From positions 1 through 23,231 of IMG/VR virus record IMGVR_UViG_3300003323_000493: a stretch of DNA of 23,231 nt; one strand, given 5' to 3'. A program made the translations under genes and the position numbers. The DNA is from a virus. This document shows, one piece after another, positions 12,101 to 23,231 of the stretch. The notes beneath the pieces are model-generated. The model did not search any database and was not told where the DNA came from. It saw only the letters and a program-made list of their open reading frames with translations. How positions within the stretch are numbered: position 1 is the stretch's first letter; each line of letters begins with the position of its first letter.

Positions 12101-12848
12101 TTCCGTCATCACGAACGCCCCGCAGGAGGGATTCGCGCTGACCGCGCAGGACGTGGTCAACAAGATGCAGGACCAGTTCCAGAAGGCCGCCCAGTTCGCG
12201 GCTCAGCTGCAGGCTCTGCAGAAGAAGGGCCTGTCGAGCGACTTGGTCGCGCAGATCGCGGCGGCGGGCGTGGACCAGGGCGGCGCGACGGCGGCCGCCC
12301 TGGTGGGGGCGACGAAGGGACAGATCCAGCAGATCAACCAGCTGCAGACGGCGACGCAGGGCGCGGCGAACAACGTGGGCGCCGCGGTCGCCGACTCGAT
12401 GTACGGGGCTGGGATCAGGTCCGCACAAGGCCTGGTCAAGGGCCTGCAGTCGCAGGAGAAAGCGATCGAGACGCAGATGATGCGGATCGCCAAGGCCATG
12501 CAGAAGGCGATCAAACAAGCCCTCGGGATCAAGAGCCCGTCAACGGTGTTCGCGGCGATCGGCCAGTGGATTCCCCGCGGTCTCGCCGCCGGTGTTGATG
12601 GCTCCGCGCACCATGCGACAGGAGCTGTGCACCGTCTCGCCGGGGCGGTGGCAGGTGCAGGCGCTGTGACCGGCCCCGGACTGGCCATGGCCGGCGGTGG
12701 AAGCGGTGGCGCGGTGGTGCACAACCACGTCCATCTGACGGTGCAGGGGCACGTCTTGACCGAGCGGAACCTGCGCAACCTGATCGAGGAGCAGATGCTG
12801 CGGCTCGGCATGCGCAACTCGACCACCTACGCGCAGTACAAGCGGTGA
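9111..12848 (+). CDS. Tape measure protein
   Basis: Two GTG starts compete: 9102 is only two bases from GAGAGG (9094-9099), so 9111 (MPEVADLYAVLR) is preferred. 1245 aa, the longest gene here. Residues about 60-260 match the TP901-type tape-measure core (MGLARETGTSTDQLAEGMYQ, LKDVTNAMTSVMASYH, IGGAIATLSQHG). Hydrophobic segments occur near residues 467-488, 540-560 and 632-650. Residues about 580-745 contain many Trp at roughly 11-residue intervals (VWNGI, IWNGI, TWSGI, LWAGI). Three copies of an 'LGI.SPS.VF...G' repeat follow. A coiled coil at about 910-985 separates copies two and three. The C-terminus ends in a NLIEEQMLRLGMRN helix. It sets tail length and is thought to act in DNA entry; at about 1.5 A per residue it predicts a tail near 185 nm. 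No lytic domain is seen. Confidence 0.92.
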   Translation: MPEVADLYAVLRAETAPFARSMRAASEEGESFTTRMGGASAMLKKLGAATTLVGVGFLAYGVKAAGDFQQKMNLLVTACGESSKNLKKVSDGVMGLARETGTSTDQLAEGMYQVEKAGYRSADGLKVLRAAAQGAREEGADLKDVTNAMTSVMASYHLKASDSVRVMNALKTAAGEGKMTMQEFAASLSTVIPIASANKISFGEIGGAIATLSQHGTSAREATQELASTIRQLAAPNNVAIQEMQRLGLSSTDVSTKLGKRGLTGTLDLLSRTVLQQMGKSGTLLLSSFNKTKQAAADADQMVKSMPPNLQKLAASYAKGSISLGDWRKALKGLPPEQANLLSQYATLQNKTNGFSAELKKGGPAAQTYTEAIKKMTGGAIGLNTTLQLTGENTEGFKDRVAKVSASFNHASKDVEGWQITQQSFNVQMGRLKEAVTTTAIVVGTKLIPVLLHVVTFFEKNRTAAIALAVVIGGVLAAAVVSFAATAVKGAVTGVMDLSRGILGAAKAVRAFVLSEQLAAFATRVWAGVQAVFNAIMDANPLVLIVIAVVALVAAVIYAYNHCERFRAIVQAAFAGVRTAAVELWHMLQTVWSGIVTGVTWLWHQIVSIWNSIVSVTTTVWNGISAFFQKWWPLLLVIFAAPIALLIGVWNHFHSQITAVATAVWNGIAAFFGSIWNGIKAIASVVWSLIQAAVINPMISLGQALRALWDTVKGWLSATWSGIRSLAASLWAGIKASMINPMTATAQAIYRLMAQVVSAISSRLSSAWNTAKSWGARFVTIGSSIVHGIVSGVTGAAGSLFGSLKSLANGALSAAKSALGINSPSRLFADNVGAHITGGIAQGVTDAAGTAHAAVRRVALGMITETSKTLGIASPSKVFRSLGIYVNEGLIDGLTGSTAKVKAATRRIESLLIQTYNRVADLKGTKGVSSKWVTSHEATIKRLEAYAAKEDKVLRSLAEKRDSVAARIKVAQKNLTALQKQWSDEVKSVAQGVMQGFSVITNAPQEGFALTAQDVVNKMQDQFQKAAQFAAQLQALQKKGLSSDLVAQIAAAGVDQGGATAAALVGATKGQIQQINQLQTATQGAANNVGAAVADSMYGAGIRSAQGLVKGLQSQEKAIETQMMRIAKAMQKAIKQALGIKSPSTVFAAIGQWIPRGLAAGVDGSAHHATGAVHRLAGAVAGAGAVTGPGLAMAGGGSGGAVVHNHVHLTVQGHVLTERNLRNLIEEQMLRLGMRNSTTYAQYKR
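11562..12660 (+). repeat. Three copies of a 40-residue SPS repeat within the tape measure gene
   Basis: Copies begin near 11562 (ALGINSPSRLF), 11715 (TLGIASPSKVF) and 12519 (ALGIKSPSTVF). Each continues as '..G..I..G...GV/L' and ends in an A-[VT]-[RH]-R segment (AAVRRVA, AATRRIE, GAVHRLA). CTCGGGATC is conserved at the DNA level in all three. The first two are adjacent; the third is about 800 bases downstream after a coiled coil. Confidence 0.7.
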
Positions 12849-12894
12849 CAAGCAGCAGAATCGAAGGCGCCGGGCGCCGGATTGGGGGTGCCCG

Positions 12895-15800
12895 GTGGCC
12901 AAGTTGAGCGGCCTCGCCGACATGTTCGAGACGGGCACGCTGAACACGAGCCGATGGAACGCCTCCTCAGCGGCTCCGAACGTCCAGGTCGACACGACGC
13001 TCGACCGGGTCGCTGTGGCGTGCACGACGAGTTACTACGCCCTCGGCTCGCAGACCTGGGACGCCACGACGGCGAGCGGCACCATCCCCAACGGGGTATA
13101 TGCCCGCGTCGTCCCGGCCCCACTCGGCAACGGCTCCACAGAAACCTACTTCGAGGTCATCCTCAACAGCAGCAACAAAGCCAGCCTCTTCGTCAGCGGC
13201 GGCGTCTTCACGGCACGGGTCACCAACGCGGGCGTGAACACGTCGACGACGATCGCAGCCAACTGGGCAGCTTTCGACGCCTACAGCTACGCCTGGTGGC
13301 GGATCACCGAAGCCAGCGGATCGTTCGTCTTCTCGACGAGCCCGGACGGCTACACATGGACCCCCCGGGCCACGATCGCCTACACCTGGAACGCCACCTC
13401 GATCAAGTTCCAGTTCTCCAGCGGCTACTCGGGCACCGAGTCCGCGTCGTCCGCCTACATCGACCACGTCAACACCGCCTCTTCGGCACCCGACCAGATC
13501 AACCTGAACTGGCCGCGCATCGAGGACGGATGGGCGCCGTTCTGGAACGTCAACGCGGGCGCTTTTCCCTTCGACCGGTTCGTCGAGGTATCCGACCGGA
13601 CCCGCGGCAGCATGTCCGTGCAGCGTGGCCGCCAGTACGAGCTGGACCAGGTGCGCTCCGGGGAGGCGTCGCTGCGCCTCGCCAATACCGACGCGGCTCT
13701 CGACCCGGTCAACACCTCCGGTCCTTGGTACGGGCACATCGTCCCGTATCAGCCCTACCGGCGGCGCGCACAGTGGCCGCCCACGCGGAACCTCCTCGAC
13801 CAGGTCATGGCTACGGGCGGCGACCTCGGCGGGTTCAGCGGCACGATCAACTCCAACACCACCGACATCTTCTCCGACACCAGCAGCGGCACGTTCGCTT
13901 CCTCGGCCACGGCGTGGCAGGGGGCCACAGTCATGCAGTTCGCGGTGCCGTCCGCGACAGCGGCCACGACCCGGATCTGCCATACCCCGCGCTGGTCTCC
14001 GGTCCCGGGCCAGACGTACACGGTGCAGCTCCGCGTCCGCAACGTCACCCCGTCCACCAGCCTGAGCGTGCAGGCTCACATCGGCTGGTACACCGCCGGA
14101 GGCGGCGGGACGCCCACGAGCTTCGTCTACGGCAGCAGTTCCACCCTGACCGGCTCGGCGACCGCAGCCTGGACCTTGGTCACGGTCACCGCCACCGCGC
14201 CAGCGGCTGCGGCCGGGATGAACGTCGGTGTCGCGGTCGCCTCGACAGCGGCGGCAACCTGCTCGATCCAGGTCGACGGCTGGCAGCTGGAAAAGGGCTC
14301 GACGGCCACAACCTGGCAGGCGCCCGGCCAGTGGTATCCGGTGTACGCCGGGTGGACGGAGCGCTGGACGCCGCAGTGGAACATGAGCGGCACATACGGC
14401 GTCGTGCAGCCGACGGCCGTGGACACATTCAGCCTCCTTTCCCAGCAGACGCTGTCGGACCCGCTCACCCAGGAGATCAACAGCAACAGTCCCCGCTTCG
14501 TTTTCAAGCTGGATGACCCCAGCGGATCCACCGCAGCGACCGACTGGACGGGCAACTACCCAGCTGCCCAGATCGGCATCAGCAAGTACGGTGCAGGGTC
14601 GCTCACTTTCGGCACTTCCATCACGGCGACCGACGCGACGGGCGTGTACACCGGATCATCCGGAACGGTGGCAACGCTCAACAACTCGAACCCTGGAACG
14701 TCCCTTGTCACCGGCGGGGCGAGCTTCCTGAAGCTGACGAACTCCGGGATCAAGGGGCCTGCGGATCCCACCTTGTGGACCCGCATGATCGCTTTCCGCT
14801 ACACCGGGCCCACGCCCACGTCGGCCGCGTGTATGTGGTCGTCGATGGACTCTCAACGCGCTGGCGGGAACCCGAGCGGATCCCACATTTACGTCTACCT
14901 CTTCACCGACGGCAAACCGGTCCTCCATATGCAGGGGCCTGGCGGGACCAACCTCAACACGTACTTCAGCGGAGCTACGAACTGCGTGGATGGAGACTGG
15001 CACCTCCTTGTCTTCGGCTACAGCCAGGCTGCCAATCAGGTGATGTTGTCCCAGGACGGCGTCGTGGCCTGGGTGGGCAGCTTGTCCACCGCCGTGACAC
15101 CAACAGGCATCGTCGGAGACAACCTGGGCGGCTTCGTCGACATCACCGTCGGAAACGGCACCATTTGGAACTGGAAAGGCGACATCGCCTTCGCGGCCGA
15201 GTTCCCGTCGTACCTGTCAGCGAGCGCAGTGACGAACCTCTATCAGGCGTGGAAGTCGGCATGCGCGGGCGAGTCCTCGACTGCGCGCTATTCGAGGATC
15301 CTCCGCTACGCCGGGTACTCCGGCTCGACGGCCCTTGATGCGGGCTTGACCACCAGCATGGGCCCGGCCGCGATCGACGGTAAGGACGCGATGAGCGCCC
15401 TGCAAGGTGTCGTTGACACGGAGAGCGGAGCGCATTTCGTCTCCCGGGATGGGACGATCACGTTCAAGGCTCGCAGTGCCCGCTACAACGCGACCACCCC
15501 TGTGTACATCTTCGGCGAGAACGCGGCGGCCGGCGAATGGCCATACGAGGACTGCACGCTGGACTACGACCCGACGCATTTGTCCAACCAGGTCACCGTC
15601 ACCCAGGAGAGCTCTGGCCAGAGCTTCTATGCCGCCGATGCGACGAGCATCGCCGCCTATTTTCCGCGGACGCTGTCCCGCACGGTCAATTCGTCGGACA
15701 CTGGCGAATGTCAAGACGCCGCTGGCTACCTCCTTTCCCGGTATAGGCAACCCGCCCAGCGCGTCAGTTCGATCAAACTGCATCCGTCCGCATATCCAGC

Positions 15801-16326
15801 CATGTGGCCGGTCTGCCTGGCGCTGGAACTCGGCACCCGAGTACGGGTGATGCGCCGTCCACCTGGCGTCCCTGCGACGCAGGTCGACTGCTTCGTCGAA
15901 AACATCGGCTGGGATTTCGGGGACGGCGGCGAAGCGTGGGTCACGCTCCAGTGCTCCCCGGCCGACCTCACCCCCTACGGCGTGTTCTCGTCCTGGCACA
16001 CCACCCTGAAGAACTCCGTCACCGCAGGGGCGACGTCCATCACCATCAACCCGTCGCAGGACAACACCAACCCGCTCGCGGCCCAGGTGGCGGTTGGCGA
16101 GGTCATTACCCTCGACCCGGGCACGGCCGTATCGGAGAACGTCACCGTCTCCGCGATCGGTGCCACCTCACCGGGCTGGACATCGGCGGTCATCACGCTC
16201 GCCGCGGGGACCGTCAACGCTCACGGCGTCGGCGCGGTCGTCTGCGACCAGCTACCGGCGGGGACGATCGACCCGAACACGTGGGACCCCGTCAGCCAGT
16301 TCGACTCGACCGCCTTTGCCTACTGA
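12895..16326 (+). CDS. Large tail-tip protein (Dit/Tal-like) with LamG- and CBM-like domains
   Basis: GTG at 12895 preceded by TTGGGGGTG. 1143 aa. Reading by segments: residues 1-195, a concanavalin/LamG-like sandwich (FVFSTSPDGYTWTPRATIAY); 200-302, a Dit-like segment (WNVNAGAFPFDRFVEVSDRT, SMSVQRGRQYELDQVRSGEA); 303-480, a CenC-type carbohydrate-binding-like domain (TYTVQLRVRNVTPSTSLSV, IQVDGWQLEKGS); about 520-790, a second LamG-like domain (CVDGDWHLLVFGYSQAANQV); 800-1035, a Tal-like part (LRYAGYSGSTALDAG, MSALQGVVDTESGAHFVSRD); and 1040-1118, the beta module shared with the tail tube protein. It follows the tape measure as Dit and Tal do, so it probably forms the distal tail ring and the host-binding tip, with sugar-directed domains for wall polysaccharide. 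Exact domain borders are estimates. Confidence 0.8.
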   Translation: MAKLSGLADMFETGTLNTSRWNASSAAPNVQVDTTLDRVAVACTTSYYALGSQTWDATTASGTIPNGVYARVVPAPLGNGSTETYFEVILNSSNKASLFVSGGVFTARVTNAGVNTSTTIAANWAAFDAYSYAWWRITEASGSFVFSTSPDGYTWTPRATIAYTWNATSIKFQFSSGYSGTESASSAYIDHVNTASSAPDQINLNWPRIEDGWAPFWNVNAGAFPFDRFVEVSDRTRGSMSVQRGRQYELDQVRSGEASLRLANTDAALDPVNTSGPWYGHIVPYQPYRRRAQWPPTRNLLDQVMATGGDLGGFSGTINSNTTDIFSDTSSGTFASSATAWQGATVMQFAVPSATAATTRICHTPRWSPVPGQTYTVQLRVRNVTPSTSLSVQAHIGWYTAGGGGTPTSFVYGSSSTLTGSATAAWTLVTVTATAPAAAAGMNVGVAVASTAAATCSIQVDGWQLEKGSTATTWQAPGQWYPVYAGWTERWTPQWNMSGTYGVVQPTAVDTFSLLSQQTLSDPLTQEINSNSPRFVFKLDDPSGSTAATDWTGNYPAAQIGISKYGAGSLTFGTSITATDATGVYTGSSGTVATLNNSNPGTSLVTGGASFLKLTNSGIKGPADPTLWTRMIAFRYTGPTPTSAACMWSSMDSQRAGGNPSGSHIYVYLFTDGKPVLHMQGPGGTNLNTYFSGATNCVDGDWHLLVFGYSQAANQVMLSQDGVVAWVGSLSTAVTPTGIVGDNLGGFVDITVGNGTIWNWKGDIAFAAEFPSYLSASAVTNLYQAWKSACAGESSTARYSRILRYAGYSGSTALDAGLTTSMGPAAIDGKDAMSALQGVVDTESGAHFVSRDGTITFKARSARYNATTPVYIFGENAAAGEWPYEDCTLDYDPTHLSNQVTVTQESSGQSFYAADATSIAAYFPRTLSRTVNSSDTGECQDAAGYLLSRYRQPAQRVSSIKLHPSAYPAMWPVCLALELGTRVRVMRRPPGVPATQVDCFVENIGWDFGDGGEAWVTLQCSPADLTPYGVFSSWHTTLKNSVTAGATSITINPSQDNTNPLAAQVAVGEVITLDPGTAVSENVTVSAIGATSPGWTSAVITLAAGTVNAHGVGAVVCDQLPAGTIDPNTWDPVSQFDSTAFAY

Positions 16327-16338
16327 GAGGATGCCGCC

Positions 16339-16884
16339 GTGGGCCGGACCGTTCCCGTCTCCGCATCAGTTGCGCCGGGAAATTTTGAGACAGCCGCATT
16401 GTGGAACGCCCAGGTCAAAGCCCTCAACGATTTTTTGACCGCGCCCCCGGTCTGCTTCGCCTACCAGACCGTCGCGCAGTCCCTGACCACCGGTACGGTC
16501 TTCCAGCTCACCATGGACTCCGAGAGTATCGACTCCGACGGCGGTCACTCCACCGTCACCAACACGAGCCGTTACACGGCCACGGTGCCCGGCACCTATC
16601 TGGTCCTCGGGAACGTCGCGATCAGCGGAAGCACCGCAGGGTACCGGGTCGGCGGCGTCAAGCTGAACGGCACGATCGTGCGCGGTTCGCAGGTCGTCAC
16701 CAACCCGATCTCCTCCAGTGGCAGCACGCCGGTTGTTTTCCCCGTGTGGGCGATCGTGACGATGAACGGGGCCACGGACTATGTCGAGATCTACGCTCAG
16801 CAAACCAGTGGCGGCAGCCTGAACACCTATATCGGGGCAGCCGACATGATCTCCTGCCTGGCTGTCTACTTCCTGTCGAGGTAA
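16339..16884 (+). CDS. C1q-like tail-tip / fibre protein
   Basis: GTG at 16339 with GAGAGG (16325-16330) eight bases before. 181 aa. The start (TVPVSASVAPGNFETAALWN, then QVKALNDFLTAPP) is the usual N-terminal motif of small actinophage tip proteins: 'f..ge..tAa.wNa.v.d...fl..pP'. The rest is a ten-strand jelly-roll pattern of the C1q/TNF type: SRYTATVPGTYLVLGNVAIS, YRVGGVKLNGTIVRGSQ, ATDYVEIYAQQTSGGSLN and a final strand CLAVYFLSR. C1q-like heads trimerise and bind ligands, so it probably forms a trimer at the tail tip next to the large tip protein. Not preceded by collagen here; a collagen-like protein lies separately at 20935. Confidence 0.75.
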   Translation: MGRTVPVSASVAPGNFETAALWNAQVKALNDFLTAPPVCFAYQTVAQSLTTGTVFQLTMDSESIDSDGGHSTVTNTSRYTATVPGTYLVLGNVAISGSTAGYRVGGVKLNGTIVRGSQVVTNPISSSGSTPVVFPVWAIVTMNGATDYVEIYAQQTSGGSLNTYIGAADMISCLAVYFLSR

Positions 16885-16922
16885 CCGCTACCCCACTCAG
16901 GCAGACACCCCCTCCAGCCACA

Positions 16923-16946
16923 CCGACCTCTACGAAAGGAGGTCGG
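16923..16946 (+). promoter_or_regulatory. Hairpin enclosing the ribosome site of the secreted GH43-like gene
   Basis: CCGACCTC (16923-16930) and GAGGTCGG (16939-16946) form a perfect 8-bp stem with loop TACGAAAG. The right arm plus loop contains AAAGGAGGT, the strongest Shine-Dalgarno in the window, ending just before the GTG at 16948. In this fold the ribosome site is hidden. Such stems in T4 e and similar late genes limit translation from long transcripts; that role is inferred here. Confidence 0.6.
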
Positions 16947-16947
16947 C

Positions 16948-18063
16948 GTGCCCGCACGTATCCGTGCTGTTCTGGCCGCGCTCGCCCTCACTCTCGCCGC
17001 GCTCTTTGGGGGTGCCGCGCCGGCGGCAGCCGATCCTCCGCCGGACGGTCCGGTCCTCATTGAGGGCGTCGACCTGCACGACACGACGATCCGCAAGTTC
17101 GGCGACACGTACTACATGTACGGGTCCCGGTATGCGTGCGGCTTCCAGTGGGGGGTCTCGGGGACCCCGTGGTGCGGGTTCGGTGTCTCCACCGCAACTT
17201 CCCTGGGCGGCCCGTGGTCGGCGCCGACCCTGCTGTTCCCGACGGCCTCCACCGATCCGTCGACGGGCCGGACGTGGGCCGCGACCTGCGGCGGCACGGG
17301 GCGCGGGTGCTTCAACCCTCGCATGATCCAGCGCTCGGGCTGGGGCTATGACGATGGGGTGTTCATCCTGTGGTTCAACGCCCCGCGTCACACGGATGAT
17401 GGGGCGGCGAATGCCTACAACGTGATGGGCTGCAACGGGCCTGCGGGTCCGTGCGGTCCGACGGCTGGCGCCCCGTCCGGCTCGTACAACAAGCCAGCCT
17501 TGGATCACTGTCCCGGCAACGGCGACTTCGGGATGATCGAGTCAGGGCAGGGCGGCCGTCCGGCGATCGTGTGCACGGAACCGGGCCGGGCGGGCCTGGA
17601 CATCCAGGACCTCAACTGGTCGGGGTCGGGTGGGAACTCTGGCGTGGGCGTGATCCACGTCGCGGGCGTGACGCTCGCGGAGGGGCCGGGCGGCTGGTGG
17701 GATGAGGCGACGCAGCGGTACGTGCTCACCTACTCGGATCAGGGCTGCGGCTACTGCGCCGGGACCCCGGCCGGCTACGCCACCTCGCCCGGCCTGTACT
17801 CCGGGTGGACCGCACCCGGCAACATCGGCTGGGGCGCTCCGGACTTCGGCCGCCGCGACTTCAGCTCCGCGTCCTGCGGCGGCCAGCCCCGCACCGTGAC
17901 TGTCCTCGACGGGCAGCCCTGGCAGGTCATCGACCTGTGGGTCGGCCAGCGCAACGAGGCCTCTGCGGACACGCTCCTCGTCCCCCTCAACTACCAGCCC
18001 ACCAGTGGCACGCCCGGAGACGGGCGCCCCTGGGTCCCCCCGCTCAGCCTCACCTGCACCTGA
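16948..18063 (+). CDS. Secreted GH43-like (five-bladed propeller) protein
   Basis: GTG at 16948 with the hairpin-enclosed AAAGGAGGT. 371 aa. Residues 1-28 are a clear Sec signal peptide: basic start (MPARIRA), a Leu/Ala core, and cleavage after APAAA. The mature part begins [20 protein letters not shown] (residues 41-60), the first-blade pattern of GH43/GH117-type glycoside hydrolases, where D45 would be the catalytic base. Later blades show [20 protein letters not shown] and [10 protein letters not shown]. Twelve Cys, an even number, suit a disulfide-bonded exported protein. Members act on arabinan or xylan type glycans; the acid residue (Glu) and substrate cannot be assigned by eye. A signal peptide is odd for a virion protein: it may be a secreted glycanase that aids lysis or release, or a host-altering cargo gene. 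Ordinary late-gene codon use. Confidence 0.7.
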
Positions 18064-18085
18064 ACAACCTGCCCCAGGAGGCCAC

Positions 18086-18889
18086 TTGTACACGCACCGC
18101 TACGACCCGGCCGACCCGAGGCTGGGCCGGCACGTGGAGCACGACCCGCGGTCCCTGCGCTTCGCGTACGGCGTCCTGCCCAAGTCGGCGATCAAGTCTG
18201 TGGACTGGATCAGGCGCGCGCCTATTTTCGACCAGGGCGACCTGGGCAGCTGCACCGGCAACGCCGCGGCGGGTCTCGTCGGCACCGACTGCCTGGCCCG
18301 CACCGGGCTGACCTCCGTCGAGGTCTCCGGCAACTTGCTCCCGGTCAACGAGGCGCTCGCCGTGCAGCTGTACGGGCTAGCGACGCAACTCGACAGCATC
18401 CCCGGTACCTACCCGCCCGACGACACCGGCTCGAGCGGCCTCGGCGCCGCCAAAGCCCTCGTCAGGCTGGGGCTGGCCACCTCCTACAGCCACGCGTTCA
18501 GCGTGGCGGCCCTCACGAGCGCGCTCCAGTGCGGCCCGGTCATGGTCGGCACCGTGTGGCTGGAGTCGATGTTCGACGCAGGCAGCAACGGCTTGGTCGT
18601 CGTCGACCGTCACAGCCAGGTCGCCGGCGGCCACGAGTACGTCATCTCCGCCTACGACGCCAGCCACTGCGCCTACCGCATCGACAACTCTTGGGGCGAG
18701 TCCTGGGGAGTCGGCGGATCCGCGTGGCTCGCCGAGGCCGATCTGCAGTGGCTTCTCTCCCAGCACGGCGACGTCACCGTTCCCGCCTGGGCCGTCGCAC
18801 CCGCCCCCGACCCCACCCCAGCCCCGGCCGTCACCGCCGGAGAACTCGCCGACCAGATCCGGGCCGTGCTCACCAAGAACGGAGTCTGA
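18086..18889 (+). CDS. Papain-like (C1) cysteine peptidase
   Basis: TTG at 18086 ([11 protein letters not shown]) follows CCAGGAGG; the longer ATG-started frame (18005) overlaps the previous gene and lacks a ribosome site. 267 aa. The catalytic set is visible: Q50 ([13 protein letters not shown]) for the oxyanion hole, C56 nucleophile, H183 in [12 protein letters not shown]201 in [11 protein letters not shown]. No propeptide of the eukaryotic kind and no signal peptide are present. The last 50 residues are a Pro/Ala linker ([17 protein letters not shown]) and a short helix, perhaps for docking to another protein. Phage-borne C1 peptidases of this type lie near tail-tip or lysis genes; it could be virion-bound and cut surface proteins, or cut wall cross-bridges with the next gene's amidase. 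Substrate unknown. Confidence 0.8.
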
Positions 18890-18890
18890 C

Positions 18891-19754
18891 ATGGCAGATC
18901 TCTGGATGCCGGGGGCGACCCGGGCTGACGTCGGCGACCACGCCGCGTGCGACGCCCAGTACCCGGCCAAGGCCATCGCCCACATCACGTGGGACAAGGA
19001 CGCAACCGCGGCGGCCCCGCTCGATCTGGTGCCGTACTCGGATCTGAAGGCGTACTTCAGCGGCGATGGCCAGGGGATGGCTCCGCACATCCTGTGGGAC
19101 CCCTTCGAAGGCTGCTTCACCCAGTTCTACCCGGCGGATTCCCGCTCGAAGTCCGTCGTCGACGTCGCCGGCGGGACCCGTACCAACCGGGCTGGGAAGG
19201 TTGTCATCCAGATCGAGGCGTTGTTTTTCCCCTACTGCCGCTACAACGGCCGGGTCTACGCGAAGCTGACCGACACGCCGTGCAAGGGCTGGCAGCAGTT
19301 GCAGGACTGGGTGCACTCCTGGGGCGTGCCGAACACCTGGCCCATGGGGCGCCCCGTGGACTTCACCTCACACCGCAGCGAGTCCGTGTGGGAGGAGCAA
19401 GGCGGCTGGTATGGGCATTCGCAGGTCCCGGAGAACGACCATCAGGACCCCGGCTCGTGGCCCGCGTTCACGCCGACCGAGGTGCAGCCGAAGCCGTCGC
19501 CGCAGTACGAGCCGTTCCCCGGCGTCGCGTTCTTCCGGCCTGGCCGCAAGTCGCCGGTGGTCAAGGCGATGCGGGCGCGGCTGATCGCGGAGGGCTGCGG
19601 CCGGTACCAGTCGTCGGCAAACCCGGACGTGTGGGGCTCTGGTGATCAGGCGTCGTACGCGGCGTGGCAGAGGCGCCTCGGCTACACCGGATCGGCCGCC
19701 GACGGAATACCAGGCAAGACCAGTTGGGACAAGCTGAAGGTGCCGAACTCGTGA
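18891..19754 (+). CDS. Endolysin: AmpD-type N-acetylmuramoyl-L-alanine amidase with C-terminal wall-binding domain
   Basis: ATG at 18891 one base after the peptidase stop. 287 aa. The amidase-2 zinc ligands can be placed: H31 (AIAHITWDKD), H176 and D186 in GHSQVPENDHQDPGSW, matching AmpD's GHSDIAPGRKTDPG with H184 in the place of its catalytic Lys. It would cut the bond between MurNAc and L-Ala in peptidoglycan. Residues about 215-287 (VAFFRPGRKSPVVKAMRARL, SYAAWQRRLGYTGSAADGIP, GKTSWDKL) are a peptidoglycan-binding-1 type domain. No signal peptide, so export depends on the holin three genes on. The gene belongs to the overlapping lysis run and overlaps the exonuclease by four bases. Confidence 0.88.
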   Translation: MADLWMPGATRADVGDHAACDAQYPAKAIAHITWDKDATAAAPLDLVPYSDLKAYFSGDGQGMAPHILWDPFEGCFTQFYPADSRSKSVVDVAGGTRTNRAGKVVIQIEALFFPYCRYNGRVYAKLTDTPCKGWQQLQDWVHSWGVPNTWPMGRPVDFTSHRSESVWEEQGGWYGHSQVPENDHQDPGSWPAFTPTEVQPKPSPQYEPFPGVAFFRPGRKSPVVKAMRARLIAEGCGRYQSSANPDVWGSGDQASYAAWQRRLGYTGSAADGIPGKTSWDKLKVPNS

Positions 19755-20305
19755 CGGCGATCGACTACGACCTGGAGTTCTTGGAGGACGGCCGCACCAT
19801 CGAGCTGATCTCCATCGGCATGGTGTGTGACGACGGCCGCGAGTACTACGCCGTCAACCGTGACATGCCCGTGCGGCGCATCCGCAAGCATAAGTGGCTG
19901 ATGGAGAACGTCGTTCCGCACCTCCCGAAGGGGCACGGAGACCAGCGCATCCACATGCCGAAACGCTGGCTCTTCCACTACGCCGACCATCGAGTGAAGC
20001 ACCGGACGACGATCGCCGCCGAGGTCGCCGCGTTCATCCAGGCGGCCGGTCCGGACGTGGAGCTGTGGGCGAACTACGGCGCGTACGACCACGTCGCCCT
20101 GGCTCAGCTCTGGGGGCCGATGATCGCGCTCCCCGAGGGGGTGCCGATGTTCACCCACGATATCCAGCAGGAGCGGTCTCGTCTCGGCCTGAGTTGGGAC
20201 GACCTGCCCAAGCAGGAAGCCGGTGAGCACAACGCGCTCGCGGACGCCCGTCACAACCAGACCGTCCGGCGCTGGCTCGCCGAACAGGAAGCGAGAACAC
20301 CATGA
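19751..20305 (+). CDS. DEDDh 3'-5' exoribonuclease (Rv2179c-like)
   Basis: GTG at 19751 overlaps the endolysin stop (GTGA). 184 aa, the usual length. The DEDDh residues are all visible: D7 and E9 in DYDLEFLEDG, D113 in ANYGAYDHVAL, H160 and D165 in HNALADARHN. The opening 'DLEFLEDGRTIELISIG' and 'REYYAVN' are typical of the Rv2179c-like exoribonuclease family, which trims RNA 3' ends with two metal ions. Its place between endolysin and holin is not explained by lysis; it may change host or phage mRNA decay or process tRNAs late in infection. It is translationally coupled on both sides (overlap of four bases with the holin). Confidence 0.85.
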   Translation: MTAIDYDLEFLEDGRTIELISIGMVCDDGREYYAVNRDMPVRRIRKHKWLMENVVPHLPKGHGDQRIHMPKRWLFHYADHRVKHRTTIAAEVAAFIQAAGPDVELWANYGAYDHVALAQLWGPMIALPEGVPMFTHDIQQERSRLGLSWDDLPKQEAGEHNALADARHNQTVRRWLAEQEARTP

Positions 20306-20571
20306 GCAACGAGATTAACCTCCCCGACGTCGACACGGTCGTGAAGACGGCCAGCACCTACGGCAGAGACCTCGCCGAGCGCGTCGTGTGGACGTTCCTC
20401 GGCGGAACGGCGGCGGTCATCGCGGCGGCCGGTCCGGCCGACATGTTCCACGCCTCGTTCTGGCAGGCCGTCGGAACCGGCGGGCTCGCGGCCGTCGTAT
20501 CCCTCGGCAAGGGGCTGGTGGCCCGCTGGCGTGGGGCGACGAACTCGGCGAGCCTCGCCAAGGGCGTCTGA
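20302..20571 (+). CDS. Holin (two transmembrane segments, r1t-like)
   Basis: ATG at 20302 overlaps the exonuclease stop (ATGA). 89 aa. Residues about 27-48 (RVVWTFLGGTAAVIAAAGPA) and 53-75 (FWQAVGTGGLAAVVSLGKGL) are two membrane helices joined by a short turn, with a basic C-terminal tail (ARWRGA). This matches small Gram-positive phage holins of the r1t type, common in actinophages. It forms the membrane lesion that releases the amidase. It sits downstream of the endolysin, an order often seen in Streptomyces phages. Confidence 0.8.
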   Translation: MSNEINLPDVDTVVKTASTYGRDLAERVVWTFLGGTAAVIAAAGPADMFHASFWQAVGTGGLAAVVSLGKGLVARWRGATNSASLAKGV

Positions 20572-20584
20572 CCGAGGGGGCGTT

Positions 20585-20938
20585 GTGGCTGAAGGTGAGC
20601 CGTCGAACGGCGAACTCGGGCGGCTCATTGGCGCGCTTCAGACGCGGTTGGACTCTCGGTTCGGGGAGTTGAACGCGCGCCTCGACAAGGTCGTGTCGCT
20701 GGACGTGTACACGATCCAGACCACTCATGTTGAGCAGCGGCTCGCCCAGCTTCAGGCGGAGATCCAGCGTTGCTCGGATGCGGGCGCCGCGTTGGAGGAC
20801 CAGTTCGAGCAGTACCAGCGTGACGAGGCGAAACGCCGGGAGGTCGAACGCCAGCAGCGCCTGTATTCGGCGATCATCCCGGTGTTGATCGCGGTGGTGT
20901 CGAGCGCGATCGCGATCTGGGCGGTGGTTGCGAAATGA
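20585..20938 (+). CDS. Tail-anchored coiled-coil membrane protein of the lysis cassette
   Basis: GTG at 20585 follows GAGGGGG (20574-20580); the ATG-started extension to 20531 overlaps the holin gene. 117 aa. Residues 10-90 are strongly helical with heptads ([35 protein letters not shown]) and a charged stretch ([14 protein letters not shown]). Residues 92-115 are a single C-terminal membrane helix ([20 protein letters not shown]). With this topology the coiled coil would stay in the cytoplasm. Possible roles are second holin, antiholin or partner of the collagen-like protein; none can be proved from sequence. It overlaps the next gene by ATGA. Confidence 0.75.
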
Positions 20939-21600
20939 GTGCTGCTCGGAAACGTCGTCGTTGGGGTTGGCCGCGGGCGGAGTGGGTCGGCGTGGGGACC
21001 GCCGTGCTCGCGCTCGGGTTGATGGCGCTGCTGGCCGTGATGGTCGTGGATCAGGCGCGCGAGCTACGGGTGGAGCGGCAGGCGCGTGATGCGCTCGCCC
21101 GTCAGGTGGAGGCGTTGGGTGAGACTCCGGTGGCGGGGCCGCCGGGGAGTCGCGGGGAGCCGGGCCGGTCGGTGACCGGACCACCAGGACCCGCAGGGGC
21201 CACGGGGCCGCCTGGCGCACAGGGCGATCCGGGTGCGGCTGGCCCGTCGGGTCCTCCGGGTCCGTCGGGTGCGGCCGGCCGGGACGGCAACGCGGGCACG
21301 GACGGGACCGCGGGCTCGGCGGGTGTGCCCGGGGCCGTCGGCGCTTCGGGTCCGCCGGGTCCGGCCGGTGAACAGGGCCCGCAGGGTGCGCCCGGTCCGG
21401 CAGGTCCTCAAGGTCCGGCTGGCCCGGCTGGTGACCGGGGTCCGGCGGGGCCTACGTGTCCGGACGGGTACTCGCTCCAGGCCCCGTCGTACGATCCGGA
21501 CGCGCTGGTGTGCCGCCGGGATGCGGCCCCGCCGCCGTCGCCTGATCCGTCGGACGGACGCCCGCAGGTGGCCCTCGATCCCCTCCGCCGCCAGTACTGA
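20935..21600 (+). CDS. Membrane-anchored collagen-like protein
   Basis: ATG at 20935 overlaps the previous stop. 221 aa. A very basic N-terminus (ARKRRRWGW) and one membrane helix (residues 17-38) predict that the rest lies outside the cell. A short coiled coil ([19 protein letters not shown]) could start trimer formation. It is followed by 4 Gly-X-Y triplets, a break (SVT), then 31 unbroken triplets rich in GPP, GPA and charged X-Y pairs. The C-terminus is a small domain with two Cys ([17 protein letters not shown]) and a Pro-rich end. At 0.29 nm per residue the unbroken helix is about 27 nm, close to a Gram-positive wall. The GC-rich repeats are coding, not a DNA artefact. Function unknown; spanin-like or wall-spanning role is speculation. 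A virion fibre is less likely because of the membrane helix. Confidence 0.8.
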
Positions 21601-21604
21601 GCAT

Positions 21605-21628
21605 GGCCCTCCCCTCCGGGGGAGGGCC
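21605..21628 (+). terminator. Hairpin closing the late operon
   Basis: GGCCCTCCCC (21605-21614) pairs perfectly with GGGGAGGGCC (21619-21628) over a 4-base TCCG loop, four bases after the collagen-like gene stop. The following GCTTTCGCG has only a short T-run, which is usual for Streptomyces terminators. Confidence 0.7.
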
Positions 21629-21654
21629 GCTTTCGCGCGTTCAGGCGGCCCAGC

Positions 21655-21756
21655 CAGTGGTCAGCCTGACCAGTGGTGGACCCCGTATCCAGGAGCACGA
21701 CGGTTTGCGTCCATCATCCCGACGGACGCAAAGGGTCCGGACCAATCCGGACCCTT
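21655..21756. terminator. Hairpin cluster between convergent genes, probable bidirectional terminator
   Basis: Three inverted repeats lie in this spacer: TGGTCA/TGACCA (21658-21663/21667-21672), within a duplicated CAGTGGT (21655, 21671); TTTGCGTCC/GGACGCAAA (21704-21712/21724-21732); and AAGGGTCCGG/CCGGACCCTT (21731-21740/21747-21756). The last two share two bases, so only one may form fully at a time. They lie between the rightward late operon and the leftward GntR gene. No ORF, tRNA or recognisable attachment core is seen in 21631-21850. Confidence 0.5.
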
Positions 21757-21850
21757 GCGGAAGACATCTTGTCCCCCATAAAGAGTGCGCTGGCCTGAGG
21801 TTGCCGACAGCAGCAAGATCATGGAGGGGGTTCGGTCGGGGCGAAACCCT

Positions 21851-22609
21851 TCAGCTCGACGCGGGCGGCTGCCCGTACACGGCCACCCACCGGTCACCGC
21901 GCATCACGATGTCGGCCGTCTCGACCGCGCGGCCGGTGGCCTGGTCGTAGTACGTCCGCTCGACCGCCAGGACGGGCCCCGGCGGCGTCATCCCGAGCGC
22001 CTGCGCCTCCTGCCGGGTCGCCGTACGGGCACGCACCCTCTCCACGGGGTCGCCGACCTCGATGGAGATGACCCGCATCCGGGCGGCAACGCCGACGCCG
22101 GCGTACGGGCCGACCTCGGGCAGCGCGATCAGCGACGTGCCAGTGAGGTCAAGGGGCTCCCACGACTCGGCAAGCTGCACGGGCTGTTCGTCGGCGAGGT
22201 ACACGTACGAGGTGCGCATCACCGCAGCCCCCGGCTCGATGCCCAGGCGGACGGCGACCGTGTCGGTGGCGGCTGCGGTGGAGGATTCGTGCCGCCACGT
22301 CCCCACCGCGCCCTGCTCGGCGACACCTTCCGCGAACGGGGAATCCTCGGAACGGCGGCGGTGACGGCGGACGAGCAGTTCGGGGGTGTCGGTGCCACGG
22401 ACGTAGTGACCGGCCCCGTGCCGGGAGACGACGAGGCCCTCATCGACGAGGAGCTTGTACGCGGCCGTCGCGATGCTGTTGCTGCCGCCGTACTGGGCGG
22501 AGATCTCGGCGACGGAGGGGAGGCGGGCGCCGGGTGACAGTTCGCCGGATTCGATGCGGGCTCGGAGGTCGTCGGCGACTTGCAGGTACCGGGGCGTTTC
22601 GGCCGTCAC
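21851..22609 (-). CDS. GntR-family (HutC subfamily) transcriptional regulator
   Basis: GTG at 22609 (minus strand) follows GGGAGG with good spacing; the longer frame to 22690 runs through the operator region. 252 aa. The N-terminal winged helix-turn-helix is clear: PRYLQVADDLRARIESGELS, PGARLPSVAEISAQYG, SIATAAYKLLVDEGLVVSRH. After a linker, the UTRA ligand domain shows GAAVMRTSYVYLADEQPVQL, ESWEPLDLTG, VERVRARTATRQEAQALGM and the closing VLAVERTYYDQATGRAVETA. UTRA domains bind small ligands. Regulators of this kind (such as KorSA of pSAM2) control transfer or replication genes of Streptomyces integrative elements. It is divergent from the small genes at 22708 and probably represses them and itself through the palindromes between them. 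Confidence 0.88.
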   Translation of the reverse strand: MTAETPRYLQVADDLRARIESGELSPGARLPSVAEISAQYGGSNSIATAAYKLLVDEGLVVSRHGAGHYVRGTDTPELLVRRHRRRSEDSPFAEGVAEQGAVGTWRHESSTAAATDTVAVRLGIEPGAAVMRTSYVYLADEQPVQLAESWEPLDLTGTSLIALPEVGPYAGVGVAARMRVISIEVGDPVERVRARTATRQEAQALGMTPPGPVLAVERTYYDQATGRAVETADIVMRGDRWVAVYGQPPASS

Positions 22610-22625
22610 TCTACGCCTCCCTTCT

Positions 22626-22696
22626 CTGTGACTTGCGTGACACAGTAGCCACCCTCCCGCTACTCTCGCACGAGAGTCATTCTCTCGCATGAGAGT
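22626..22696. promoter_or_regulatory. Tandem palindromic operators in the divergent promoter region
   Basis: ACTCTCGCACGAGAGT (22662-22677) is a near-perfect palindrome: 7-base arms and a CA centre. TCTCTCGCATGAGAGT (22681-22696) is a direct repeat of it, 14 of 16 bases alike, starting 19 bases later, about two helical turns. Upstream, CTGTG/CACAG (22626-22630/22641-22645) is a weaker inverted repeat. They lie between the GntR gene and the gene at 22708, the expected place for the regulator's binding sites. No clear -10/-35 pair could be fixed. Confidence 0.6.
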
Positions 22697-22707
22697 GAGG
22701 GTCCGTC

Positions 22708-22944
22708 GTGCCCGTCAGCCTGCGCGTAGCAGCTTTACGCACTGCCCTTGAGCGCGCCACCGACCAGCCCGCGCGCCTGCTCGCCACCCCGCACGGCACA
22801 CGCGTGTACGTCACCGCCCCCGCCGACCCGGACGCCTGGGAACGCACCATCACCGCCCTCAACTCGGCGGACGGCTGGGGCAGCACGGACTCATCCGGCC
22901 GGACCGAGGTCTGGGCGCAGATCGACGACGAGGTGATCGAGTGA
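22708..22944 (+). CDS. 78-aa protein of unknown function with an early TTA codon
   Basis: GTG at 22708, 11 bases after the second operator, with GTGAGGG (22695-22701) as a modest ribosome site. 78 aa: a helix (LRVAALRTALERATD), a strand pair (ARLLATPHGTRVYVTAPA), a helix (DAWERTITALNSA) and a final strand (TEVWAQIDDE). I recognise no family. Codon 10 (22735-22737) is TTA, the only in-frame TTA I found in the window; in Streptomyces TTA needs the bldA tRNA. The gene is the first of a run of small overlapping genes that the GntR regulator probably controls. Confidence 0.8.
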   Translation: MPVSLRVAALRTALERATDQPARLLATPHGTRVYVTAPADPDAWERTITALNSADGWGSTDSSGRTEVWAQIDDEVIE

Positions 22945-23108
22945 ACCAGCAGGGCATCTACGGCTTCTGTGCCTGGCACAAGGCGTACGCCTACGGCGTG
23001 CGGGTGATCAGCCTCGTCAGGAAAGGCCGGGGTGTCACGTTCGTCCTGTACGCGTGCGGGAGCTGCCGGGACCTGTACGGCCTGACACCGCAGGCGGACC
23101 GGCCATGA
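22941..23108 (+). CDS. 55-aa protein with paired CxxH and CxxC, possible zinc microprotein
   Basis: GTG at 22941 overlaps the previous stop (GTGA) and its own stop overlaps the next ATG (ATGA), so it is well framed despite its size. It reads GIYGFCAWHKAYAYG, a strand (RVISLVRKGRGVTFVLY), then ACGSCRDLYGLTP. The C-x-x-H and C-x-x-C about 30 residues apart could bind one zinc ion. Unknown function; small proteins of this kind occur in integrative-element clusters of Streptomyces. Confidence 0.75.
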   Translation: MNQQGIYGFCAWHKAYAYGVRVISLVRKGRGVTFVLYACGSCRDLYGLTPQADRP

Positions 23109-23231
23109 TCTCCGAAGACGACCTGGAGTATCTGTCCTCAGCATGCGCGGTCGCCACCCGGTTCGGGCCAGTGTCCGGACATCGCGACTGCCGCCTCCTC
23201 AAGGACATCCCGATGCCTCACTCCAAGGGGC
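23105..23231 (+). CDS. Start of an unknown gene, cut by the window end
   Basis: ATG at 23105 overlaps the previous stop by ATGA and the frame is open to the last base. The 42 visible codons begin MISEDDLEYLSSACAVATRF and contain GHRDC. Too little remains to assign a family. It continues the translationally coupled run begun at 22708. Confidence 0.6.
   Translation, partial: MISEDDLEYLSSACAVATRFGPVSGHRDCRLLKDIPMPHSKG

Follow-up and report, generated by a model that had tools for sequence, protein, structure and literature searches.

One gene of the window, the whole stretch of 23,231 nucleotides of viral DNA that was analysed and that is read as coming from a temperate Streptomyces phage, encodes a secreted-type GH43-like protein. 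This is read, with fair probability, as a Sec-exported, disulfide-braced, five-bladed glycosidase of clan GH-F, made late in infection, which would cleave a glycan of the host surface or its surroundings as an accessory aid to the release or spread of progeny. Although it scores below the Pfam GH43 cut-off, the protein probably functions as a secreted glycosidase of clan GH-F. The kind of enzyme is known, while the family and its setting appear to be new.

The gene and its surroundings are listed in Table 1. A preliminary description of the locus had given the interval 16923-18063; its end agrees with that of the gene, but 16923 is the start of the upstream hairpin and the gene itself begins at 16948. 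The N-terminus of the product contains a basic n-region, a hydrophobic core and an AXA-type cleavage site. In a simple hydropathy scan its peak is 2.62, against 1.67 or less for all other genes of the window, and it is the only signal-like N-terminus there. The signal peptide ending in APAAA that had been described is therefore seen, as are the twelve cysteines, which all lie in the mature part. The protein is presumably exported and presumably forms disulfides.

Table 1. Features at and around the GH43-like gene (positions in the window)
Feature	Position	Strand	Remarks
Small tail-region protein, upstream of the GH43-like gene	16339..16884	+	Synteny
Hairpin CCGACCTC-(TACGAAAG)-GAGGTCGG, immediately before the start codon	16923..16946	+	Fold z -5.2; register not conserved among relatives
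Shine-Dalgarno AAAGGAGGT	16935..16943	+	Exact match
GH43-like secreted protein gene	16948..18063	+	GTG start; 371 aa plus stop; dN/dS 0.16 against the relative at locus L036
Sec-type signal peptide, residues 1-28	16948..17031	+	Putative cleavage between APAAA and D; hydropathy scan
D45 codon, putative catalytic base	17080..17082	+	Invariant; aligns with the GH43 Asp base; Gly at this place in 5flw
D193 codon, putative pKa-modulator Asp	17524..17526	+	Invariant; aligns with canonical and GH43_24 Asp
E245 codon, putative catalytic acid, EGP motif	17680..17682	+	Invariant; aligned with the GH43 acid
Q313 codon (GGQPR)	17884..17886	+	At least 90% conserved; aligned with the GH43_24 base Gln
Papain-like (C1) cysteine-peptidase-like protein, downstream	18085..18889	+	Motifs read by eye; homologues beside the GH43-like gene in L054 and L060
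Endolysin	18891..19754	+	phrog_17214, E 2e-81; 59.5% identity to Streptomyces phage mu1/6 endolysin

Predicted fold and putative catalytic residues

The AlphaFold (AF2) model, built from 43 sequences, has a pLDDT of 91.0 and a pTM of 0.88 and supersedes an earlier model from 10 sequences with a pLDDT of 68. A five-bladed beta-propeller is predicted. When this model was compared with the PDB by VIA-align, the nine top entries were GH43_24 exo-beta-1,3-galactanases or close relatives (Z 27.1-28.2), other GH43 structures ranked next (Z up to 23.8), and almost all of the entries shown were GH43 (Z 20.7-28.2). The best match among the viral structures of BFVD reached a TM of about 0.47, and no close viral relative was seen there. 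Sequence profiles gave fainter signals. The Pfam GH43 (PF04616) match of the window protein scores 15.3 bits against a gathering score of 32.2, so it lies below the curated cut-off, and weak GH43 HMM matches occur in 29 of the 43 members (best E 2.6e-7, the other members being represented by E-values only). Searches of PHROGs and NCBIfam with the protein returned no useful match, and a sequence search of the PDB returned weak matches only, which were read just for their local alignments.

Across the 43 sequences, a set in which identity falls as low as about 40%, D42, H44, D45, D193 and E245 and ten cysteines are invariant; for Q313 and the two final cysteines, conservation is at least 90%. 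The DLHD motif belongs to the first blade and contains D45, where the preliminary description had located it in a GH43-type blade. In a profile-profile alignment (E 6e-5), D45, D193 and E245 fall on the invariant base, modulator and acid triad of Streptomyces GH43 domains, and a profile of GH43_24-like host proteins (E 3e-5) supports D193, E245 and Q313. The roles would thus be those known from GH43, with D45 the base, E245 the acid and D193 the pKa modulator, and the mechanism is probably inverting. Among the outcomes named in advance as telling against a glycanase were a fold without a propeller and a lack of the catalytic residues; a five-bladed propeller is predicted, the three acids are aligned and invariant, and the reading stands.

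The Asp base, Asp modulator and Glu acid of canonical GH43 (Pfam PF04616) all align with the family, although the window member is well under the cut-off. The closest fold to the model (Z 27-28) is that of the GH43_24 exo-beta-1,3-galactanases (5flw, 3vsf, Pc1,3Gal43A 7byx, BT3683 6eug/6euh), whose acid Glu, modulator Asp and base Gln also align. GH43_24 enzymes are without the Asp base, and the Gln has been reported as the base in Pc1,3Gal43A (PMC7939473). The phage family differs in its Cys-rich insertions and an identity of 14-19%, and in keeping D45. By its predicted fold and putative triad the family is GH43-like, but it is placed outside the GH43_24 definition because it retains this Asp base, which GH43_24 lacks. 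In the ERPK motif of GH43_24, the Glu (Glu102 of Pc1,3Gal43A) recognises the galactose C4-OH; the window protein has FNPR where ERPK is expected, a correspondence taken from motif order only and lying outside the profile alignment.

Among actinophages, an enzyme shown experimentally to be active on an actinobacterial wall glycan is the endo-D-arabinanase DUF4185 of Gordonia phage GMA6 (PMC10115798). It belongs to a different family, and the match between a putative GMA6 lysin and the model is weak (TM 0.30).

Relatives and gene neighbourhood

The family occupies 38 loci on viral contigs. Of the 395 Streptomycetaceae genomes sampled, 20 contain a match, which in some is partial and in some may belong to a prophage. 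When 50,697 deposited phage records were searched by tblastn, neither the window protein nor the divergent L053 member had a match. Across the class, a search of 395 genomes returned the query genome itself as the sole match, so Streptomycetaceae and their phages appear to be the centre of the family. Judged from these searches, it is an undescribed gene family that occurs both in dozens of phages known only from uncultured sources and on the chromosomes of some Streptomyces. Bacteroidales loci L013-L024 were considered as members and rejected, the match covering about the first 60-90 residues only.

Examination of wider flanks places the host loci L012, L034 and L121-L127 among ordinary chromosomal genes. 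The chromosomal copies stand alone, one of them adjoining a LacI-type regulator. In the tree, copies from phages and from hosts are intermingled, and of seven label changes at least five are forced by well-supported branches, which indicates that the gene has moved repeatedly between phages and hosts. The family shows purifying selection, with dN/dS of 0.16-0.40 in ten pairs. According to the hydropathy scan, signal-like N-termini are present in most relatives, including the chromosomal copies. A lipobox occurs in L063:4220-5323 and L072:7887-8906, which are possibly membrane-anchored members. The host copies at L080, L084 and L085 are double: a single open frame of about 750-790 codons holds two GH43-like units in tandem. 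Larger host proteins at L088:1342-3321 and L090:1312-3297 contain a distant DAHDG-type version of the domain, at about 29-31% identity, and are a possible outgroup.

In most viral loci the gene follows the tail genes and precedes amidase-type endolysins, C1-peptidase-like genes or GH25-like proteins, the last in L052 and L054. In about nine relatives its position is instead close to the terminase or to other genes. The window endolysin most resembles the endolysins of Streptomyces phages mu1/6 and VWB, so that the host probably belongs to Streptomyces. Integrases or serine recombinases occur in several relatives, and these relatives are therefore temperate. Phage VWB carries homologues of both products encoded beside the gene in L036, the small tail protein and the endolysin, without a GH43-like gene between them. 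Its endolysin is 72% identical to that of L036 over the first 198 residues, and the 343 bases between the two VWB homologues hold a small ORF and a hairpin like that before the L036 endolysin. Since VWB has the flanking homologues but not the gene itself, the best interpretation of the GH43-like gene is that of an accessory gene where two modules meet.

The product of 18085-18889, between the GH43-like gene and the endolysin, has no signal peptide and no match in Pfam or PHROGs; a relative of it is encoded elsewhere in L053. A collagen-like protein at 20935-21600 resembles phage tail-fibre families, and its homologue directly follows the GH43-like gene in L011.

Proposed role and alternative readings

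The favoured course of events would begin with late translation from a strong ribosome binding site between the tail and lysis genes. The enzyme would leave the cell before or at lysis and, once outside, would cut terminal sugars from a glycan of the host mycelium or its surroundings. The benefit would most likely be accessory help to the release or spread of progeny; cargo for the lysogen and removal of receptors would follow in that order of likelihood. A lysis-linked role is in any case not the sole use of the gene, because about nine relatives lie elsewhere and hosts keep stand-alone copies.

Cargo for lysogenic conversion or nutrition, a secreted polysaccharidase that helps the lysogen in soil and is encoded next to the lysis genes, where accessory genes are usual, is a possible but doubtful explanation. 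It would suit the temperate relatives with integrase-type genes, the repeated exchange with Streptomyces chromosomes, the stand-alone chromosomal copies (and the LacI-type regulator beside one) and the GH43 genes reported in soil viromes (PMC10227523). The late position in gene order, adjoining lysis genes in most relatives, argues against it, as does a scan for sigma-70-type sites that found no promoter-like site upstream of the gene. The same late position, the export signal and the lipobox variants in L063 and L072 would also fit an exported, sometimes lipid-anchored enzyme that strips the adsorption glycan, thereby shielding the infected mycelium from superinfection and keeping progeny off debris. 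Such receptor removal is unlikely, given that most members have no anchor and that related phages such as VWB manage without the gene.

That the propeller is degenerate and only binds sugar without catalysis is very improbable. The score below the Pfam GH43 gathering score would allow it, but the three catalytic acids are invariant over 43 diverse sequences and the family is under purifying selection. Least credible of all is a virion-associated glycanase with an N-terminus that does not serve as a signal peptide. The gene does come directly after tail genes, but no feature of the family is more general than the signal-like N-terminus, which extends to the chromosomal copies, the conserved cysteines suit extracellular folding, and lipobox variants exist. 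The signal-like N-terminus likewise counts against a virion-attached depolymerase in the form of a trimeric fibre or spike. The model, the conservation and the N-terminus support the view in the preliminary description of an exported propeller protein, not an ordinary part of the virion.

A more specific form of the release reading is tentative and rather doubtful. The family would be a separate, undescribed branch of clan GH-F, with both the canonical Asp base and a GH43_24-type Gln. In temperate Streptomyces phages it would serve as a soluble exit factor, exported by Sec, and would open the outer host glycan in step with lysis. If so, the exit factor would form a layer of phage release additional to holin and endolysin. 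A secreted glycosidase with full catalytic residues, which many uncultured actinophages keep next to their lysis genes, which Streptomyces chromosomes share and which is absent from the deposited phage genomes searched, would point either to a glycan layer that matters when phages leave or spread among filamentous soil bacteria or to a cargo directed at soil polysaccharides.

The hairpin at the start site

The CCGACCTC/GAGGTCGG stem has eight Watson-Crick pairs and one U-G pair, and the 31-nt hairpin segment folds at -18.1 kcal/mol (z -5.2 against shuffles). The Shine-Dalgarno (SD) AAAGGAGGT recurs once in the window, at 15728-15736 on the - strand. The perfect 8-bp stem around the SD that had been described is thus real, with the wobble pair added, but it is less special than it seemed, since the stem at 12895 is stronger: a large tail gene starts there at an 11-pair stem, CGCCGGGCGCC/GGTGCCCGGTG, within 12850-12905, with a local fold of -30.2 kcal/mol. 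Stems are longer in the GH43-like family than at other SD genes (6.6 against 4.2 pairs, p 0.0002), whereas the pairing probability of the SD is not significantly higher (0.68 against 0.59, p 0.17).

Eight close relatives share the identical leader GAAAGGAGG. No pairs were predicted when eight close leaders were folded to a consensus, the sequence of the ribosome binding site itself being conserved; MAFFT may have misregistered the left arms. In L039, L042 and L043 the SD (GAAAGGA) lies mostly in the hairpin loop, L046-L048, L060 and L069 have an upstream terminator-like hairpin instead, and some relatives are without any hairpin. The proposal that an SD-hiding hairpin serves as a switch does not hold across the family; a regulatory role is possible, unsupported as a conserved feature.

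The start-associated sequences (SAS/ESAS) of cluster K mycobacteriophages place an SD core inside a conserved start-site element, some with upstream inverted repeats (PMC3203893). The SD core of the GH43-like gene is similarly placed. In contrast, SAS is a fixed 13-bp sequence present in 11-19 copies per genome, and AAAGGAGGT is found at one gene start in the window.

A scan of 12700-23231 for intrinsic terminators found none. A hairpin with a TTTCTTCATG-type tail recurs at the borders of the GH43-like gene (L036:9050, L039:9143, L042:9094, L046:7911, L060:7868), before the endolysin or the GH43-like gene, and a similar one precedes the VWB endolysin.
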